The position numbers and the translations under genes were made by a program. From contig NZ_BDMM01000007.1 in assembly GCF_002157625.1 (NCBI RefSeq), positions 1 through 64,000 of the forward strand: a stretch of DNA of 64,000 nucleotides, written 5' to 3'. The notes below the pieces were generated by a model. The model saw only the letters and a program-made list of their open reading frames with translations, had not been told where the DNA came from and did not search any database. Shown one piece after another: positions 31,148 to 44,042 of the stretch. Positions within the stretch are counted from its first letter, which is position 1. Each line of letters starts with the position of its first letter. This DNA comes from Brevundimonas sp. SH203 (lineage in GTDB: Bacteria; Pseudomonadota; Alphaproteobacteria; Caulobacterales; Caulobacteraceae).

Positions 31148-32038
31148 TCAACCCCGCATCAGGCGTCGGCACAGGTCGTCCAGCTGCTCCAGCGTGCCGT
31201 AACGGATCGTCAGCTCGCCCTTGCCGTCCCGGTCGGTCAGCTGGACGTTCAGCCCCAGGGCGTCGGCCAAATCCTGCTGCAGGGCGACGACATCCGCCGA
31301 TCCGCCGCCGCTGGTCTTGCTCCCACCCGACCGGGCCTTTGGCGCCTTGGGCCCCTCCAGCGCGCGGCGGGCCAATGCCTCGGTCTCGCGCACGCTGAGA
31401 CCGTCGACGAAGGCGATATCGGCCAGCTGCCCCGGATCGGGCGTGTTGATCAGCGCCCGCGCATGGCCCGCCGACAGCTTGCCTTCGCGCACATAGAACA
31501 GCACCCGTTCCGGCAGCTGCAGCAGGCGCATGGTGTTGGCCACATGGCTGCGACTCTTGCCGACCACGCCGGCGACCGCATCCTGGGTCCGACCGAACCG
31601 CTCCATCAGCACGCGATAGGCTTCGGCCTCTTCCAGGGGGTTCAGATCGGCGCGCTGCACGTTCTCGACGATGGCGACCTCGAACACTTCCACGTCGTCC
31701 ATCTCGTGGACCACGATCGGCACTTCGGTCAGGCGCGCGGCCTGCGACGCGCGCCAGCGCCGCTCGCCGGCGATGATCTGCCAGACGCCCTCCTCGCCCG
31801 GCTGGGTCCGCACCAGGATCGGCTGAAGCACGCCCTTGTCGCGGATCGAGGCGGTCAGCTCTTCCAGGTCTTCCTGACGGAAAACTTTTCTCGGCTGGTC
31901 CGGGTTGGGTTTCAGGCTTTCGATCGGCGCGCGCCGCACGCCGGCGGGCGTCGGCGCATCGGCGGCGACCGGCGCCTCCGCATTCTCGCCCATCAACGCC
32001 GACAGGCCGCGGCCCAGACCTCTGTGTCGTTCAGCCAA
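31148..32038 (-). CDS. parB: Chromosome-partitioning protein ParB
   Basis: A 296-residue ParB. The N-terminus RGLGRGLSALMGE is the ParA-stimulating segment. The CTPase domain follows (SLKPNPDQPRKVF; GVLQPILVR; GERRWRASQAA, the CTP/arginine patch; ENVQRADLNPLEEAEAY). The helix-turn-helix VVGKSRSHVANTMRLLQLP reads parS, and the C-terminal 40 residues dimerise. ParB loads at parS as a CTP-gated clamp and spreads. Four parS sites lie in the next 6 kb. It is downstream of parA in a parA-parB pair (29-base gap). Confidence 0.97.
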   Translation of the reverse strand: MAERHRGLGRGLSALMGENAEAPVAADAPTPAGVRRAPIESLKPNPDQPRKVFRQEDLEELTASIRDKGVLQPILVRTQPGEEGVWQIIAGERRWRASQAARLTEVPIVVHEMDDVEVFEVAIVENVQRADLNPLEEAEAYRVLMERFGRTQDAVAGVVGKSRSHVANTMRLLQLPERVLFYVREGKLSAGHARALINTPDPGQLADIAFVDGLSVRETEALARRALEGPKAPKARSGGSKTSGGGSADVVALQQDLADALGLNVQLTDRDGKGELTIRYGTLEQLDDLCRRLMRG

Positions 32039-32067: not shown

Positions 32068-32898
32068 TCAGGCGGCCAGTTTCAGCCGTTGGCGCTCACG
32101 CTTCACGACCTCGCGCGCCAGACGCAGATAGGCCTGGCTGCCGGCGCATTTCAGGTCATAGATCAGGGCCGGTTTGCCGAAAGACGGCGCCTCGGCCACA
32201 CGCACGTTGCGCGGTATGACGCTCTCATAGACCTTGTCGCCGAAATGAGCGCGGACATCGTTGGCCACCTGGCCCGACAGGGCGCTGCGGCGATCGAACA
32301 TGGTCAGGACCAGACCCTGGATTTCCAGCGACGGGTTCAAACTGTGTTTGACCATGTCGATGGTCCGCATCAGCTGGCTCAGTCCCTCCAGCGCGAAGAA
32401 TTCGCACTGCAGCGGCACCAGCACCGCATCCGCCGCCGCCATGGCGTTCAGCGTCAGCAGGTTCAGGGACGGCGGGCAGTCGATCAGCACATAGTCATAC
32501 GCGGTAGGGCCGTTATCATGTGCTCTCAGCGCATCGCGCAGTCGATAGGACCGACGATCCGCCTGACTCAGTTCGATTTCGACGCCCGACATATCCGCAT
32601 CCGCCGGCACGATCCAAAGCCCCGGAACCGTGGTCTGCACCGCCGCATCGTCGATGGACCGCTGATCCACGACCACATCGTATATAGTCACGCGCCGTGT
32701 TTCACGTGGAACACCCAGTCCGGTGGAGGCATTGCCCTGCGGGTCCATGTCCACGATCAGGACGCGCTCGCCGATAGCCGCCAAAGCCGTGCCGAGGTTG
32801 ATGGCCGTCGTGGTCTTGCCCACGCCGCCCTTCTGGTTGGAGACGGCCAGGACCCGTGCGGGCTGTTTGCTACGACCTGTTGCGGGCACGTCGAACAC
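32068..32898 (-). CDS. parA: Chromosome-partitioning ATPase ParA
   Basis: A 276-residue ParA. The deviant Walker A KGGVGKTT is at 23-30, Walker A' DMDPQGNAST near 50, and Walker B VLIDCPPSL near 138. It forms DNA-bound gradients that pull ParB-parS. Translation starts at GTG 32898, 28 bases inside the end of rsmG, so the two are coupled. One parS (32698-32713) lies inside this gene. Confidence 0.97.
   Translation of the reverse strand: MFDVPATGRSKQPARVLAVSNQKGGVGKTTTAINLGTALAAIGERVLIVDMDPQGNASTGLGVPRETRRVTIYDVVVDQRSIDDAAVQTTVPGLWIVPADADMSGVEIELSQADRRSYRLRDALRAHDNGPTAYDYVLIDCPPSLNLLTLNAMAAADAVLVPLQCEFFALEGLSQLMRTIDMVKHSLNPSLEIQGLVLTMFDRRSALSGQVANDVRAHFGDKVYESVIPRNVRVAEAPSFGKPALIYDLKCAGSQAYLRLAREVVKRERQRLKLAA
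32698..32713. other. parS site 1 (within parA)
   Basis: TGTTTCACGTGGAACA differs from the parS consensus TGTTTCACGTGAAACA at one position (A to G). It is in the coding sequence of parA. Confidence 0.9.
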
Positions 32899-33502: not shown

Positions 33503-35382
33503 CAGGCGGCGATCGTTTCGCGCGGACCGCGCTTCACATGGGCCAGCAACGCGGTTAGCGCGCCCGGCGTCATCCCCTCGATCCGACCCGCTTGCCCGAG
33601 GGTCAGGGGCCTGATCCGCGCCAGCTTCTCGCGCACCTCATTGGACAGCCCACCGATGCTTTCGTAGTCCAGGTCTATCGGCAGCTTCAGCGCCTCCTCG
33701 GTTTTGAGCGCCTTGGCGTCCAGAGACTGCCGATCCAGATAGTTGGCGTAACCGGCGTCGATCACAACCTGCTCCCGGACGTCCTCCGACCAAGCGGCGA
33801 TCTCCGCGATGGCAGGGAGGAACTGATCGAGCGTCACGTCCGGAAAGGCGAGCAGTTCGCGCATGGACCGACGCCGACCGTCGGCGTTCACGGCGATTCC
33901 CAAGGCGCCCGCTTCCTTGGGTGTAAACAGCGTTTCACGTGAAACAGTCTGGGCCTTGGCCAACTGCTTCGCCTTGCGCTGGAACCGCTCGCGACGGGCC
34001 TCTCCGACGATGCCGATCTCGATCCCCAGCGGCGTGAGCCTCTGATCGGCATTGTCCGCCCGCAGGGTCAGTCTGTATTCCGCCCGGCTGGTGAACATCC
34101 GATACGGCTCTGTCACGCCGCGTGTAACCAGATCGTCGATCATCACTCCGATATAGGCTTGGTCGCGGCCCAGGATCACAGGCCCCTCGCCCGCCGCCGC
34201 ACGGGCAGCGTTCAGTCCCGCCATCAGCCCCTGCGCCGCCGCCTCTTCGTAGCCTGTCGTGCCATTGATCTGGCCTGCCAGATACAGGCCCGGCCGTTTC
34301 TTGGCCTCCAGCGCCGGCGTCAGTTCGCGCGGATCAACATAGTCGTATTCAATGGCGTAGCCGTAGCGAAACACCTCCACGGCCTCCAAGCCCGGGATGG
34401 TGCGCAGAAAGGCCAGCTGGGTCGGTTCCGACACCGAGGTCGATATGCCGTTCGGATAGACAGTCGGATCGTCCAGACCTTCCGGTTCGAGGAAGATCTG
34501 GTGGCTCGTCTTGTCCGCGAACCGCACCACCTTGTCCTCGATGGAGGGGCAATAGCGCGGCCCCCGCCCCGACAGCCGCCCACCATAGACGGCGCTTTCG
34601 CCCAGATTTTCGGCGATGATGCGGTGGGTCTCTTCCGTCGTATGGGTCACGCCGCACGCGATCTGTGGTACGGTGATGGCTTCGGTCATGAAGGAGAAGG
34701 CGGACGGCGCCGCGTCCGCCTGCTGCATCTCCAGCCGGTCCCAGGCGATGGTCCGGCCGTCCAGCCGCGCCGGCGTGCCCGTCTTCAATCGTCCCATCGT
34801 CAAGTCGGCCGCGTGAAGATCGGCCGCCAGACCTGTGGACGGGTCTTCTCCATGACGCCCTGCGGGAATGCGCGCATCGCCGCGATGGATGACGCCGTTC
34901 AGGAAGGTGCCGGTCGTCAGAACCACGGCGCCGGCTCGGATCGTTTCTCCGGCCCCGGTCGTCACGCCCACGACCTTTTCGCCATCCAGCAGCAACCGCT
35001 CGGCGGTTCCGGCCATCAGCGTCAGGTTCGGCGTCGACGCCAACTCCGCCTGCATCGCCTCGCGATAGAGGCGGCGGTCGATCTGGCTGCGCGGCCCCCG
35101 CACAGCCGCGCCCTTGGAACGATTCAGCAGACGGAACTGAATGCCTGAGACATCGGCTAACCGCCCCATGACGCCGTCCAGGGCGTCGATTTCGCGCACG
35201 AGGTGCCCCTTGCCCAGACCGCCGATGGCGGGGTTGCAGGACATTTCGCCGATGGTTTCCAGCTTCTGCGTCAGCAGGATCGTGCGAGCGCCCGCGCGCG
35301 CCGAGGCTGCGGCGGCCTCGCAGCCGGCATGGCCTCCGCCGATGACGACGACGTCGCAGACGATTTCGTTGGGATCGATCAT
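33502..35382 (-). CDS. mnmG: tRNA uridine-5-carboxymethylaminomethyl modification enzyme MnmG
   Basis: A 626-residue FAD protein that with MnmE puts cmnm5 on the wobble U34 of several tRNAs. The dinucleotide fold [10 protein letters not shown] is at 15-24, and family signatures [31 protein letters not shown] and [19 protein letters not shown] follow. ATG at 35382 gives the family N-terminus (MIDPNEI); a TTG at 35427 would add 15 residues. parS site 2 lies inside it and site 3 just upstream. Confidence 0.96.
33931..33946. other. parS site 2 (within mnmG)
   Basis: CGTTTCACGTGAAACA matches the parS consensus except for the first base (T to C). Located in the coding region of mnmG. Confidence 0.9.
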
Positions 35383-35442: not shown

Positions 35443-35458
35443 TGTTTCACGTGAAACA
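35443..35458. other. parS site 3 (perfect, mnmE-mnmG gap)
   Basis: TGTTTCACGTGAAACA, a perfect 16-base parS palindrome, in the 93-base gap between mnmE and mnmG. Confidence 0.96.
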
Positions 35459-37018: not shown

Positions 37019-37031
37019 CGGCCTCAGCTCC

Positions 37032-37047
37032 GTTTCACGTGAAACAG
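37032..37047. other. parS site 4 (rho-DUF6489 gap)
   Basis: CGTTTCACGTGAAACA, one mismatch (first base) to the parS consensus, in the 52-base gap between rho and the DUF6489 gene. Confidence 0.92.
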
Positions 37048-39177: not shown

Positions 39178-40250
39178 GCCGCGTGTCTCCCGTTACGATG
39201 CGGACAGGCCTTCCAGTCCGCCTTGCAGCCTTGGCCGTGCGGCGCGACGCCGGTTCGGTTCAAGGCCCCCAAGGCCGCATCGGCCAGGGTGTCGATGAAC
39301 AGAGGCTCGATCCCGACGGCCGGGGCGCGCAGATAGGGCTGGACACCCTTCTGATGGGCCAGTTCGGCGTATTCGATGTCCAGCTCGACCAGGGTTTCGA
39401 TATGTTCGGAGACGAAGGCGATAGGGGTGACGACCACCCCGACCCCGTCGTCGGCCGCGCTCTGGATCGCCTCGGGCGTCGACGGCCCCAGCCATTTCAT
39501 CGGTCCGACCCGGCTCTGATAGCAGAGGGCGTGGTCGATGGGGCCGCGCCGGGCCTCGATCTCGGCGACCACGGCGGCGACGGTTGTTTCGACCTGCTCC
39601 TGATAGGGGTCGCCCTTGCCGTTGATCAGCTTTTCAGGAATGCCGTGGGCGGAGAACAGCACCCGCACCGACGCCTCGCCCGCCTCGTCCAGCTTCCGTT
39701 CGATGGCCTGGGCCTGGGCGGCGATCCAGCCGGCGGCCCTAGGATAACAGCAGACGGCCCGGCTGACGCCCGATCCGGCATAGGTCGCGGTCCAGAGCTG
39801 CAGCGACGACTGGGTCGTGGTCGTCGAATACTGCGGATAGAGGGGCAGCAGCACCACCTCGTCCGGGCCGAACACGGCGACGTCGGCGGCCGTTTCCTCG
39901 GTCAAAGGGTTCCAGTAGCGCATGGCGATGAAGACCCGAACCTCGTCGCCCGGCATCCGGTCGGCTATCACGGCCTGAAGCGCCTGGGCCTGGGCCTGGG
40001 TTTCGGGCAACAGCGGCGATCCCCCGCCCATCAGCCGATAGTTGGCCTGGGCGGCGGTCTCCCGGCGGCTGGAGATCAGCCGGGCCAACGGCGTTCTCAC
40101 CAGGCCGGGCAGGCCGATGATGGCCGGGTCGTTGAACAGGTTGAACAGAAAGGGCTTGACCGAGGCCTGATCGTCCGGCCCGCCCAGATTGAACAGGACG
40201 ACGGCGATCCGGCGTCCCTTCAGACCCGCCCCCTCCCGCGCGTCGGTCAT
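39174..40250 (-). CDS. hemH: Ferrochelatase
   Basis: A 358-residue enzyme that inserts Fe(II) into protoporphyrin IX. Family segments are VVLFNLGGPDDQASVKPFLFNLFNDPAII, YPQYSTTTT and the catalytic His in LFSAHGIPEKLI near 198, then YQSRVGPMKWLGPSTPEAI. The C-terminal tail holds two cysteines (C-x6-C); some ferrochelatases, including that of C. crescentus as I recall, bind a [2Fe-2S] cluster using C-terminal cysteines. Four-base overlaps with both neighbours. Confidence 0.96.
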   Translation of the reverse strand: MTDAREGAGLKGRRIAVVLFNLGGPDDQASVKPFLFNLFNDPAIIGLPGLVRTPLARLISSRRETAAQANYRLMGGGSPLLPETQAQAQALQAVIADRMPGDEVRVFIAMRYWNPLTEETAADVAVFGPDEVVLLPLYPQYSTTTTQSSLQLWTATYAGSGVSRAVCCYPRAAGWIAAQAQAIERKLDEAGEASVRVLFSAHGIPEKLINGKGDPYQEQVETTVAAVVAEIEARRGPIDHALCYQSRVGPMKWLGPSTPEAIQSAADDGVGVVVTPIAFVSEHIETLVELDIEYAELAHQKGVQPYLRAPAVGIEPLFIDTLADAALGALNRTGVAPHGQGCKADWKACPHRNGRHAA

Positions 40251-41317
40251 TGGGCGCCGATCCGTTTCAGCACCCGTTCGACATGGTCGATCGGCACATC
40301 CGGCAGGATGCCGTGACCCAGGTTGAAGATCCACGGCCCCTGCCCCCAGGCCTCCATCAGCTGATCCACGCGGCGGTCCAGCAGATCGCCGCCCGCACGC
40401 AGCAGAAGAGGATCGAGCGCGCCCTGGATCGGCTTGATCGCCTGCACCCGTTTGCCGACCTCCAGAGGACAGGCGGTGTCCAGCGCCACGGCGTCGACCT
40501 CGACCTCTTCCGCATACCGCTCCGCCAGCGCCGCAGAGCCGCGTGGGAAGCCGATCAGGGGCACGTCGACCCCCAGCTCCCGCGTGCGCCGGACCAGCGC
40601 CTGGTGAGGCTTCAGAACCAGCCGTTCGAACAGGTCGTCGGGAAGCCCCTCGGCCCAGCTCTCGAAGATCTTCAGCACCTGGGCGCCCGCGTCGGCCTGC
40701 ATCTTCAGATACCGGGCCGTGGCCTCGACCAGAACCTCCAGCGTCTCGTCCACCCGTTTCGGATCGGCATAGGCATAGGTGCGGGCCTGGGCGCGCTCGC
40801 CCTTGCCGATGGTGCGGTGTTCGCCGTCCAGCATATAGGTGGCGACCGTCCAGGGGGCGCCCGCGAAGCCGATCAGGGCGCGTTCCGGCTCCAGCGCCGC
40901 GCGCACGATCGACAGGGTCTGGCCCACGGCCGATAGATGCTCGCCCGCGCCGGGCGCCAGTTCCGCCATCCGGCCGGGGATCGGCATTTCGCCCAGGCGC
41001 GGCCCCTCCCCCGTCTCGAACCAGACGTCCTGACCCAGGGCGCGCGGGATCAACAGGATGTCGGCGAAGACGATGGCGGCGTCGAAGCCGAACCGGCGCA
41101 TCGGCTGAAGTGTCGCCTCCGCCGCCATCTCGGGGTTCAGGCAGAAGGCGATGAAGTCCGACGCCTCGGCCCTCAGCCGACGGTATTCCGGCAGATACCG
41201 CCCGGCCTGACGCATGAACCAGACGGGCGGACGCTCCAGCGTCTCCCCGCGAAGAGCCCGGATCATCCGGGGCGTATCCGGGCGGATCTGATCGTCGGTT
41301 CGGTTCGGATCGGTCAT
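40247..41317 (-). CDS. hemE: Uroporphyrinogen decarboxylase
   Basis: A 356-residue TIM-barrel that decarboxylates uroporphyrinogen III to coproporphyrinogen III. The signatures PPVWFMRQAGRYLPEYRR (about 31-48) and IVFADILLIPRALGQ, with FAGAPWTVATYM, are intact. It is the first gene left of the origin gap, transcribed away from it. In C. crescentus hemE likewise borders Cori, and its promoter region overlaps the origin. Confidence 0.97.
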   Translation of the reverse strand: MTDPNRTDDQIRPDTPRMIRALRGETLERPPVWFMRQAGRYLPEYRRLRAEASDFIAFCLNPEMAAEATLQPMRRFGFDAAIVFADILLIPRALGQDVWFETGEGPRLGEMPIPGRMAELAPGAGEHLSAVGQTLSIVRAALEPERALIGFAGAPWTVATYMLDGEHRTIGKGERAQARTYAYADPKRVDETLEVLVEATARYLKMQADAGAQVLKIFESWAEGLPDDLFERLVLKPHQALVRRTRELGVDVPLIGFPRGSAALAERYAEEVEVDAVALDTACPLEVGKRVQAIKPIQGALDPLLLRAGGDLLDRRVDQLMEAWGQGPWIFNLGHGILPDVPIDHVERVLKRIGAQ

Positions 41318-41512
41318 GCGGGACGATTAAGGTCACAGCCCCCCGCTCTCAATCCCTAATCAAAATAAGAATTAAAAGATTCGAAGTGGCAGGTAGGGCG
41401 GTGGAATGACGGGGATGACTCGCGCCGTGGCGGCGGAACAAAAGCGGATATCCCCGGCCCGACTATCGTTAACGGGGATCGTCGTCGGGCCTTTCCCGGC
41501 GGTGGACAATCC

Positions 41513-41528
41513 CTAACGAAACCTTAAC
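41513..41528 (+). promoter_or_regulatory. CtrA box in the origin (1)
   Basis: CTAA-N7-TTAAC matches the CtrA consensus TTAA-N7-TTAAC with one change. CtrA bound here would block initiation in swarmer cells, as known for Caulobacter Cori. Confidence 0.6.
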
Positions 41529-41564
41529 GGCAAAGGCTTTGCGGGGCTTTGCGCCTGTGAATGC

Positions 41565-41582
41565 GGTTAAGCGACGTTAACC
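41565..41582. promoter_or_regulatory. Perfect TTAA palindrome in the origin
   Basis: GGTTAA (41565-41570) and TTAACC (41577-41582) form a perfect inverted repeat with a six-base spacer. It resembles a CtrA box with spacing shortened by one; its right arm is shared with the next CtrA box (41577-41591). Confidence 0.5.
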
Positions 41583-41591
41583 TTCCATTAG
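41577..41591 (+). promoter_or_regulatory. CtrA box in the origin (2)
   Basis: TTAA-N7-TTAG differs from TTAA-N7-TTAA at the last base. It ends two bases before the DnaA box TTTTCCACA (41594-41602), so CtrA and DnaA could compete here. Confidence 0.6.
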
Positions 41592-41593
41592 GA

Positions 41594-41602
41594 TTTTCCA
41601 CA
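41594..41602 (+). other. DnaA box
   Basis: TTTTCCACA matches TTATCCACA at eight of nine positions. Best DnaA box seen in the origin gap. Confidence 0.7.
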
Positions 41603-41764
41603 GCGAAGGCGAAACGGGTTTTCCGCCTTGGGATGAACCGGCCGCCTTCGGATGATGCGATCCACCTTCATCCCCGCTCGCGGCGCGAACGCGGAGCGGC
41701 TAAGACAGACGGCGCCCCGGCGATCCCCCGCCGTCCCCGAACTTTCAACAGGGAGACCGACCGT

Positions 41765-42649
41765 ATGAGCCCTGCCCGACCGCCCGGCGTCCGGCCGTCC
41801 AATCCCGGTCGTCTGGCCACCTATTTCCACGTCCATCTGGTGTCGGATTCCACCGGCGAGACGCTGAACGCCATGGCCAAGGCGGTCACGGCCCGTTTCG
41901 ACGGCGTCATCCCCATCGAACACATCTACGCCCTGGTCCGTTCGGACAAACAGATGGAGCGGGTGCTGCAGGAGGTCGCCTCGGCCCCCGGCGTGGTTCT
42001 CCACACCCTGGTCGATCGCGATCTGCGCGAACAGCTGGAAGAGGGGTGTCGTCGGCTGGACATGCCCCAGATCGGCGCGCTCGATCCGCTGGTGGGGGCC
42101 ATGTCGCGCTATCTCGGCGCGGCCCTGTCCACCCGGGTCGGCGCCCAGCACGCCCTAGACCACGACTATTTCAACAGGATCGCGGCGCTGGACTTCGCCA
42201 TGGCGTATGACGACGGCCAGGGCTCGTTGGAGCAGCTGGAGGGGGCCGACGTGGTGCTGTGCGGCGTCAGCCGGACGTCCAAGACCCCGACCTGCATCTA
42301 TCTGGCCCACCGGGGCATCCGCGCCGCCAACGTCCCCCTGGTGCCGGGACAGGAGGACGGCGAGCGGCTGACGCAGCTGAAGAACCCGCTGGTCATCGGC
42401 CTGACCGTCTCGCCGGATCGCCTGGTCCAGATCCGGCGCAACCGGATCGACAATCTGAACGCCAATCCGTCCTCCGCCTATACCGATCAGGAGGCGGTGC
42501 GCGACGAGACGATCAAGGCGCGGCGGGCCTTCGAACGGCGCGGCTGGCCCACCATCGACGTCAGCCGACGTTCGGTCGAGGAAACGGCGGCCGCCATCAC
42601 CAATCTGCTCAGCGAGCATCGCAACCACAAGATCGGAACCACCTGGTGA
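41765..42649 (+). CDS. ppsR: Kinase/pyrophosphorylase, PpsR/YdiA-like (DUF299)
   Basis: A 294-residue bifunctional regulator: an ADP-dependent kinase and Pi-dependent pyrophosphorylase acting on PEP synthase or pyruvate phosphate dikinase. It begins FHVHLVSDSTGETLNAMAKA, has the P-loop-like GVSRTSKTPTCIYLA near residue 160, and ends with the RRSVEETAAAI helix. ATG at 41765 has GGGAGA upstream; the frame open from 41561 runs through CtrA and DnaA sites and is rejected. It is the first gene right of the origin, like CC_0001 in C. crescentus. Confidence 0.92.
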   Translation: MSPARPPGVRPSNPGRLATYFHVHLVSDSTGETLNAMAKAVTARFDGVIPIEHIYALVRSDKQMERVLQEVASAPGVVLHTLVDRDLREQLEEGCRRLDMPQIGALDPLVGAMSRYLGAALSTRVGAQHALDHDYFNRIAALDFAMAYDDGQGSLEQLEGADVVLCGVSRTSKTPTCIYLAHRGIRAANVPLVPGQEDGERLTQLKNPLVIGLTVSPDRLVQIRRNRIDNLNANPSSAYTDQEAVRDETIKARRAFERRGWPTIDVSRRSVEETAAAITNLLSEHRNHKIGTTW

Positions 42650-43239: not shown

Positions 43240-44042
43240 CCGTCCAGGCCGGGGTCGCCGGCTGGCCCATCGCCCATTCGCTCAGCCCCCTGATCCACAC
43301 GACCTGGATCGCGGCGGCGGGTCTGGACGCCGCCTATGTCGCCCATGGGCCGGAGACGCCCGATCAGTTCGCGGCCCTGCTGGATCAGGGGCGTTCGGGC
43401 CGGCTGCGTGGGCTGAACGTCACCGCCCCCTATAAGGAACAGGCCTTCGCCGCTGCGGATCGCGTGTCCGACGCCGCCCGTCTGGCGGGGTCGGCCAATC
43501 TCTTGGTGTTCGAGGACGGGCGCGTCGCGGCCGACAGCACCGACGGTCATGGGCTGATGAACGCTCTTGCGGAACAGGCGCCGGCGCTTCGTGTCGAGGG
43601 CCAGCCGGTGGTGATCGTGGGCGCGGGCGGGGCGGCGCGCGCGGCGGCGGGCGCCCTGGCGGCGGCCGGGGCCGGAGTCCGCATCCTCAATCGCTCGCGC
43701 GACCGGGCCGAACGGCTGGCCGCCGATATCGGCGCGGGCGTGACGGTAGTCGAGGCGCAGGGCGCCTTTATTGACGCCGTCCTGGTGGTCAATGCGCTCA
43801 GCGTCCGGCCCGATCTCGACGTCGCGCGGCTGGAGGCGGACACGGTGGTCATGGACATGACCTATCGCCCGCTGGAGACGCCGCTGCTGGCCGCCGCACG
43901 GGCGCGAGGCTTGGTCGGGGTCGATGGTCTGGCCATGCTGATCGGTCAGGCGCGGCCGTCGTTCGAGGCGATCTTCGGCTGTGCGGTTCCCGAGACCGAC
44001 GTGCGCCGGCGGGTGCTGAACCATCTGGGAGAGGCGGGGTGA
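43236..44042 (+). CDS. aroE: Shikimate dehydrogenase
   Basis: A 268-residue NADP-dependent enzyme of the shikimate pathway (3-dehydroshikimate to shikimate). Shikimate-binding [12 protein letters not shown] (residues 10-21) and NVTAPYKEQ with the catalytic Lys are present, then [11 protein letters not shown] and the NADP loop GAGGAARAA. It overlaps maf by four bases and coaE by four bases. Confidence 0.94.

Follow-up and report, generated by a model that had tools for sequence, protein, structure and literature searches.

Is the gap between hemE and ppsR in the window (the whole 64-kb stretch of Brevundimonas DNA analysed here) the origin of chromosome replication, and is it held in check by CtrA as Cori of Caulobacter is? 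A sequence-only reading of this stretch had placed in the gap a chromosomal origin whose CtrA and DnaA sites lie next to each other, and this claim is backed by position, parS sites, an A+T-rich block, the statistics of TTAA pairs spaced by seven bases (N7) and conservation, and by GC skew only coarsely. From these features we infer that the gap is very probably the Brevundimonas replication origin and the counterpart of Caulobacter Cori.

Genomic setting and sample

The divergent genes flanking positions 41318–41764 are both matched by NCBIfam profiles, in agreement with the borders given by the sequence-only reading (Table 1), and the ppsR product scores below the NCBIfam equivalog cut-off for PpsR. 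A genome search with ppsR gave 116 relatives, of which the best 80 were used; 67 of these records are titled Brevundimonas, and the others carry broader names or, in one case, Bordetella. Together with the window they make 81 rows, referred to as the Brevundimonas group, and these cluster together with support on the tree. hemE was divergent from ppsR in all of the best 80 of 116 relatives, with a gap of 380–515 bases. From other Caulobacteraceae 40 regions were taken and 34 yielded a gap; among the six that were dropped, four came from stretches that stop before both genes (L133, L135, L169 and L170) and two were without hemE at this place (L156 and L160). In the latter two, ppsR and rho are near neighbours with no hemE between them, indicating that the hemE/ppsR synteny is not universal in the family. 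The tree, calculated from hemE and ppsR, thus has 115 rows (81 of the Brevundimonas group and 34 other gaps). An Rfam search of the 64-kb window gave no match at the gathering thresholds.

Two clades of the group are referred to by name below, the window's (vesicularis) clade of 17 rows and the diminuta clade, a supported clade of ten rows that includes the B. diminuta records (L054, L056, L060, L063, L066, L067, L069, L075, L078 and L080). L066 is titled as a Bordetella sp. MAG, yet it has an origin region of the B. diminuta type and is probably mislabelled or mixed. In the gaps of the other 54 Brevundimonas-group rows, 40 copies of CTATAG were observed upstream of ppsR, and this hexamer is almost missing from the flanks of those 54 gaps (0.00 per kb); it is perhaps a ppsR promoter element.

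Table 1. Features of the hemE/ppsR region, in positions of the window.
Feature	Position	Strand	Remark
parB	31148..32038	-	TIGR00180 above cut-off; nearest solved chain ParB 6t1f
parS-like site 1	32698..32713	.	
parS-like site 2	33931..33946	.	
parS-like site 3	35443..35458	.	perfect match to the searched palindrome
parS-like site 4	37031..37046	.	
hemE, left border of gap	40247..41317	-	NCBIfam TIGR01464 above cut-off
Putative origin region, Cori counterpart	41318..41764	.	447 bases; hemE/ppsR order in relatives
Direct repeat CAATCCCTAA, left copy	41350..41359	+	
A+T-rich block	41357..41380	.	most A+T-rich 24-mer in 64-kb window
DnaA-like weak box TCATCCCCG	41410..41418	-	
DnaA-like box TTGTCCACC	41501..41509	-	3 bases left of CtrA-like box 1
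Direct repeat CAATCCCTAA, right copy	41507..41516	+	supplies, with its CTAA, the left half of CtrA-like box 1
CtrA-like box 1, CTAA-N7-TTAAC, CTAACGAAACCTTAA	41513..41528	+	one mismatch
Palindrome GGTTAA-N6-TTAACC	41565..41582	.	clade-specific
CtrA-like box 2, CTAA-N7-TTAAC on - (TTAA-N7-TTAG on +), with TTAACCTTCCATTAG at 41577..41591	41576..41591	-	one mismatch
DnaA-like box TTTTCCACA	41594..41602	+	2 bases right of CtrA-like box 2
DnaA-like weak box TCATCCCCG	41668..41676	+	followed by CTCGC
GGCGCC element	41711..41716	.	column reads GGCGCC in 47/81 aligned rows
ppsR (pyruvate, phosphate dikinase/PEP synthase regulator), right border	41765..42649	+	NCBIfam NF003742 above cut-off

parS cluster and GC skew

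The four parS-like sites are the only ones of the genome at one mismatch or fewer and are located 4.3–8.6 kb left of the gap, placing a parS cluster within about 10 kb of it. Four such sites were likewise found in each of two single-contig relatives.

GC skew, proposed by the sequence-only reading as a check, was sampled over 164 kb of the window's contig (171 kb long), in 48 samples of LR732816 and in 12 of B. albigilva. In the window's contig, the minimum fell at 150.7 kb within the 164 kb scanned, away from the gap. For LR732816 (a single contig of 3.32 Mb), 40 samples of 20 kb placed the cumulative minimum in the sample at 830–850 kb and the maximum near 3.08 Mb; finer samples located the change from negative to positive skew near 910 kb, about 80 kb from its gap at 994 kb, and the samples to either side of the gap were negative again. 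The 12 samples of B. albigilva showed no clear turn. The check thus agreed coarsely in LR732816 and gave no turn at the gap itself, and in all three sequences the skew was too coarse or too weak to be used as proof of an origin. A skew minimum elsewhere had been named by the sequence-only reading as refuting its claim, and the data do not clear this hurdle cleanly. Because inversions around the origin are reported to be frequent between Caulobacter genomes (PMC4221894), the skew turn could be shifted from the gap. The KOPS-like signal GGGNAGGG, scored in the 40 coarse samples of LR732816, was also rejected as a marker, its best split being at 1.34 Mb and 3.16 Mb, away from the gap. The sampled skew of LR732816 (G001) suggests that its replichores are unequal, with the turn at about 0.91 Mb and the maximum at about 3.1 Mb of 3.32 Mb.

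A+T-rich block and DnaA-like boxes

The A+T-rich block named in the sequence-only reading was confirmed, since the 24-mer at 41357 (A+T 0.88) surpasses every other in the 64 kb, the runner-up elsewhere reaching 0.79; this block is likely an unwinding element or the hemE promoter. The ten-base direct repeat of the same reading was found at 41350 and 41507, with no further copy on either strand of the window, and at its left copy AATCCCTAA is present in all 17 rows of the window's clade.

The DnaA box that had been placed near the palindrome corresponds to the DnaA-like TTTTCCACA, and the reported distance of two bases between it and the end of the right-hand CtrA box matches as well. Absent from that earlier description were TTGTCCACC, the two TCATCCCCG boxes, the four parS-like sites and the GGCGCC at 41711. 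At the place of TTGTCCACC, the genus consensus is CGGGGATAA, that is, TTATCCCCG, and the columns of the TCATCCCCG box near ppsR (41668..41676) rank among the best conserved of the gap alignment. The DnaA-like octamer TTNTCCMC occurs at a mean of 1.4–3.0 per gap in five groups versus approximately 0.1 in shuffles, with single gaps in two of the groups having none. The gap holds both an A+T-rich block and a cluster of DnaA-like boxes. DnaA itself is encoded in the window's genome on another contig, outside the 64-kb window (G000:C4:75219-76619).

CtrA-like boxes and N7 spacing

TTAA-N7-TTAA boxes had been claimed for the gap. No exact one was found there; instead, there are two boxes of the form CTAA-N7-TTAAC, each with one mismatch, and the three exact copies of the genome are all on other contigs. 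Among 2000 shuffles of the gap, 12 contain two such one-mismatch boxes, and 6 of the window's 11 TTAA tetramers fall within the 447 bases of the gap. The CTAA end of each box has a DnaA-like box 2–3 bases away, and together with these DnaA-like boxes the pair makes up a module of 102 bases with mirror-image symmetry.

When exact TTAA pairs at spacings of 3–12 bases were counted, with shared ancestry of the rows included in all the counts, N7 gave 54 pairs in the 81 Brevundimonas-group gaps (0.15 in shuffles). The 34 gaps from other genera yielded 72 (0.4 in shuffles), and no other spacing exceeded 15 and 3, respectively. With one mismatch allowed, the peak was less sharp in the Brevundimonas group (129 at N7 versus 69 at the next, N3) and amounted to 114 versus 29 in the other genera. 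On these sequence counts, we take the N7 signal in the related gaps to be real. Across the whole of the window's genome, matches to CTAA/TTAA-N7-TTAAC hardly outnumber those to the reversed control (9 versus 5). The central box pair is found at near-identical positions in the majority of the 80 Brevundimonas-group loci, and the window's genome encodes a CtrA with 89% identity to that of C. crescentus. Competition between CtrA and DnaA is known for C. crescentus (PMC4468827, PMC3885167), and by analogy the adjacency of the boxes makes direct competition plausible in the Brevundimonas gap. A search of titles and abstract openings in the open literature found no publication on CtrA sites at Brevundimonas origins.

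Comparison with Cori

The ParB of genome G079 is 100% identical over 235 residues to PDB chain 6t1f, which comes from C. vibrioides, and on this ground we take G079 to be C. vibrioides. Its gap contains five N7 boxes at one mismatch or fewer, four of them exact. Five CtrA sites are described for Cori (PMC4468827), and the published IHF site of Cori, TAACGCTCTGTT (PMC4285127), is contained in the N7 box at position 180 of the G079 gap.

The window's gap resembles the G079 gap in lying between hemE and ppsR, in length (447 versus 461 bases), in an A+T-rich hemE side, in N7-spaced TTAA boxes, and in DnaA-like boxes near the central boxes, with weak boxes of the TCATCCCC type in both. In contrast to the five CtrA boxes of G079, the window's gap has two, with none on the hemE side and none next to ppsR; both are one mismatch off, unlike the four exact ones of G079. 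The weak boxes of the window's gap end in G and those of Cori in A, and the window's gap has the N6 palindrome in addition. Under a narrow definition of Cori by its five CtrA sites a–e, the window's gap has two boxes. Neither an exact G-box TGATCCACA nor the W-box TCCCCA, both features of Cori, is present in the gap, the nearest exact G-box being at 43291, and the IHF site TAACGCTCTGTT, which lies within Cori CtrA site c, has no match in the gap at three mismatches or fewer. The alignment of gaps and the comparison with Cori that the sequence-only reading had called for were carried out on 115 Caulobacteraceae gaps, with the result that N7 boxes at one mismatch or fewer are present in all but 11 gaps and the N6 palindrome is bound to one clade.

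The N6 palindrome

GGTTAA-GCGACG-TTAACC is an exact instance of the palindrome reported by the sequence-only reading, and it overlaps the right-hand CtrA-like box, the two having one arm in common as had been described. Of 2000 dinucleotide shuffles of the gap, 13 produced an exact TTAA-N6-TTAA. A standing as a conserved, Cori-like element was not supported, because the palindrome is found in 15 of the 17 gaps belonging to the window's clade and in none of the 98 other gaps. In these 15 rows the arms are kept and the six-base spacer is variable; an intact left arm is missing in two of the 17 rows. The genus consensus at this place is GGGCGCCGTTAAC, and the sequence before the right-hand box is GGTTAA-N6 in the window's clade versus GGGCGCC in the consensus. 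Since it is confined to the window's clade and the consensus differs, the palindrome appears to be a local novelty and no old part of Cori.

Exact TTAA-N6-TTAA, whose spacing falls one base short of that of CtrA boxes, was also observed 98–100 bases upstream of ctrA in all seven genomes looked at (L090, L191–L196); in the window's genome this pair is GTTAACCCTTCTTAAGG, close in sequence to the right-hand origin box. As N6 pairs stand at the ctrA promoter too, the palindrome of the gap may still be bound. A second N6 site, TTAATCGCGGTTAA (L216, L217), is common to LR732816, B. diminuta ATCC 11568 and the window's genome; it is intergenic when the conserved start is taken, and probably lies between divergent genes. 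Exact N6 sites number 2–8 per genome and strand in six genomes against 0–6 in the reversed control, a mostly modest excess.

Loss of CtrA boxes in the diminuta clade

No N7 box at one mismatch or fewer was found in 11 of the 115 gaps, namely L034 and all ten rows of the diminuta clade, and in the latter none was found in any of the ten gaps even at two mismatches. A move of the boxes to a nearby place was rejected for eight of the ten loci, where 16–21 kb each contained none at one mismatch or fewer. DnaA-like boxes and parS-like sites are retained: TTNTCCMC is present three times in each of the ten gaps, and parS-like sites left of hemE number four in six of eight loci, three in L063 and one in L066, whose contig stops 5 kb away. 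In several rows, sequences of the TTGTCC/TTATCC type face each other at the former place of the right-hand CtrA box. CtrA is present with 88–89% identity in all four diminuta-clade genomes tested. Lowering the affinity for CtrA at all five Cori sites is reported to have mild effects in the laboratory (PMC4468827).

GGCGCC array and a candidate methyltransferase

GGCGCC occurs 6–11 times per gap in the diminuta clade, with a mean of 7.9 versus 0.53 in dinucleotide shuffles, whereas the mean is 2.5 in the other 54 Brevundimonas-group rows (shuffles 0.54), 1.3 in the window's clade (0.41), 1.4 in Caulobacter (0.32) and 1.6 in the other genera (0.30). In every group it is more frequent in the ppsR half of the gap. 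Relative to the density in the mostly coding flanks, the excess is large in the diminuta clade (7.9 versus 1.15 expected), and moderate in the 54 rows (2.5 versus 0.74) and the other genera (1.6 versus 0.67); the window's clade (1.29 versus 0.91) and Caulobacter (1.39 versus 0.84) show a small one. The diminuta clade thus differs from the other Brevundimonas-group origins in having neither CtrA box and 6–11 GGCGCC. This suggests, from the sequences compared, that one Brevundimonas branch lost the CtrA sites at its origin and gained a different repeated site. Complete box loss corresponds to two changes on the tree, too few for a statistical test of the array against CtrA-box loss; its pairing with an expansion of GGCGCC comes from a single evolutionary event.

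Within the diminuta gaps, the GGCGCC cores are 88% invariant versus 38% for the remaining gap. The commonest distance between neighbours over all gaps is 21 bases, largely due to one inherited pair. C stands on both sides of 54 of the 79 diminuta cores in one orientation, and the two bases ahead of the leading C are A or T in more than 80%, figures that are drawn from non-independent rows with an orientation rule that favours C. Since these flanks are non-random, we lean towards the site of a binding protein over a bare methylation site. Clusters of three GGCGCC also recur at many sites outside the origin in the two diminuta-clade genomes that were searched, so that the origin is not set apart by density alone.

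GANTC is also frequent in the diminuta clade (5–8 per gap, mean 6.4 versus 2.3 in shuffles), but the other Brevundimonas groups show no more of it than expected by chance (1.8 and 2.5 versus 2.2 and 2.5). A composite GANTC-GGCGCC element was rejected, because 33 of the 79 diminuta GGCGCC have a GANTC no more than 8 bases away and 30.9 are expected at random. Likewise, GGCGCC as Gly-Ala codons of a longer ppsR was rejected, as the frame is closed after 11 codons in five of the ten diminuta rows and the sites are not in one frame.

The enzyme CCNA_03741 of C. crescentus is reported to methylate GGCGCC, and B. subvibrioides to have its ortholog without a partner restriction enzyme (PMC7987155). 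It is one of two solitary cytosine methyltransferases; YGCCGGCR was discarded as its motif, since this belongs to the other, ScmA (CCNA_01085) (PMC12907096). G079 has a single PF00145 protein, approximately 131 kb from the origin, which by that place is presumably the counterpart of CCNA_03741. Relatives of this protein were found with 51–56% identity in all six Brevundimonas genomes compared, and a search of 50 genomes selected from the 80 detected relatives in 46. The gaps of the four genomes without a match have 0, 1, 0 and 0 GGCGCC, and one or fewer is also found in 13 of the 46 with a match; a tie between absence of the enzyme and few GGCGCC (Fisher p 0.01, kinship uncorrected) was set aside as weak. 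The window's genome has several PF00145 matches (contigs C1, C3, C4 and C9), some of them in pieces, versus one in G079.

Discussion

The explanation that we consider well supported and quite probable as a whole is an origin at the Cori position, opened by DnaA and braked by CtrA on a reduced pair of boxes, with a recently acquired N6 palindrome. DnaA would assemble on weak boxes across the gap and open the A+T-rich block beside hemE, and phosphorylated CtrA on the two opposite-strand boxes would, as in C. crescentus, exclude DnaA until CtrA is cleared. Compared with Cori, the central CtrA box pair alone would have been kept, both boxes one base off the consensus, and the palindrome would be a recent local addition.

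A different view accepts the gap as the origin and takes its TTAA boxes to be only promoter elements through which CtrA controls hemE or ppsR, with no part in the control of initiation. The gene order implies two divergent promoters in the gap, and the diminuta clade lives without the boxes, both of which suit that view; the boxes, however, stand in the middle of the gap and abut the DnaA-like boxes in mirror image, and a promoter role of this kind seems unlikely to us. That the gap is just an ordinary divergent promoter region, with the origin at some other place, such as close to the sampled skew minimum roughly 80 kb off, we regard as very improbable. The parS cluster, the hemE/ppsR synteny with Cori and the enrichment of DnaA-like and N7 boxes all argue against it, and the observations in its favour, the LR732816 turn at about 910 kb instead of 994 kb and the weak skew of the window's contig, have to be read with the Caulobacter origin inversions (PMC4221894), which could move a skew turn.

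As to the palindrome, it might be a true third CtrA site, or a pair of half-sites, that strengthens the brake in the vesicularis clade. Arms that are kept while the spacer varies (15 of 17 clade rows), exact N6 pairs that resemble the right-hand box upstream of ctrA in seven of seven genomes, and the second N6 site common to the vesicularis and diminuta clades point in this direction. Because it is missing from all 98 gaps outside the clade, two of the 17 clade rows are without an intact left arm, and the genome-wide excess over the reversed control is only modest, we hold this role to be possible but doubtful, and prefer the recent addition to a two-box origin.

E. coli oriC carries the GATC sites of Dam and SeqA, and the diminuta GGCGCC array would be no more than analogous, as an origin-located cluster of potential methyltransferase sites with a different motif and a different base. 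We know of no reader protein for the array. The open literature, searched by titles and abstract openings, yielded no publication on GGCGCC at any origin. In a speculative extension to which we give a low probability, the Brevundimonas GGCGCC (approximately WWCGGCGCCCNG) would be a second control element of the origin, either a sensor of methylation state or the site of an origin-binding factor. The array would have expanded with the box loss in B. diminuta and taken over part of the control, the conserved CtrA would no longer be a direct brake there, and the window's clade would have overwritten one GGCGCC with the N6 palindrome.

Silencing of Cori by CtrA is textbook cell-cycle control, and Brevundimonas offers a natural experiment on it, as the same origin carries two CtrA boxes, one or none in close relatives whose CtrA proteins are nearly identical. 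If B. diminuta initiates replication asymmetrically without CtrA at the origin, another brake must exist, and the GGCGCC array would be the obvious candidate.
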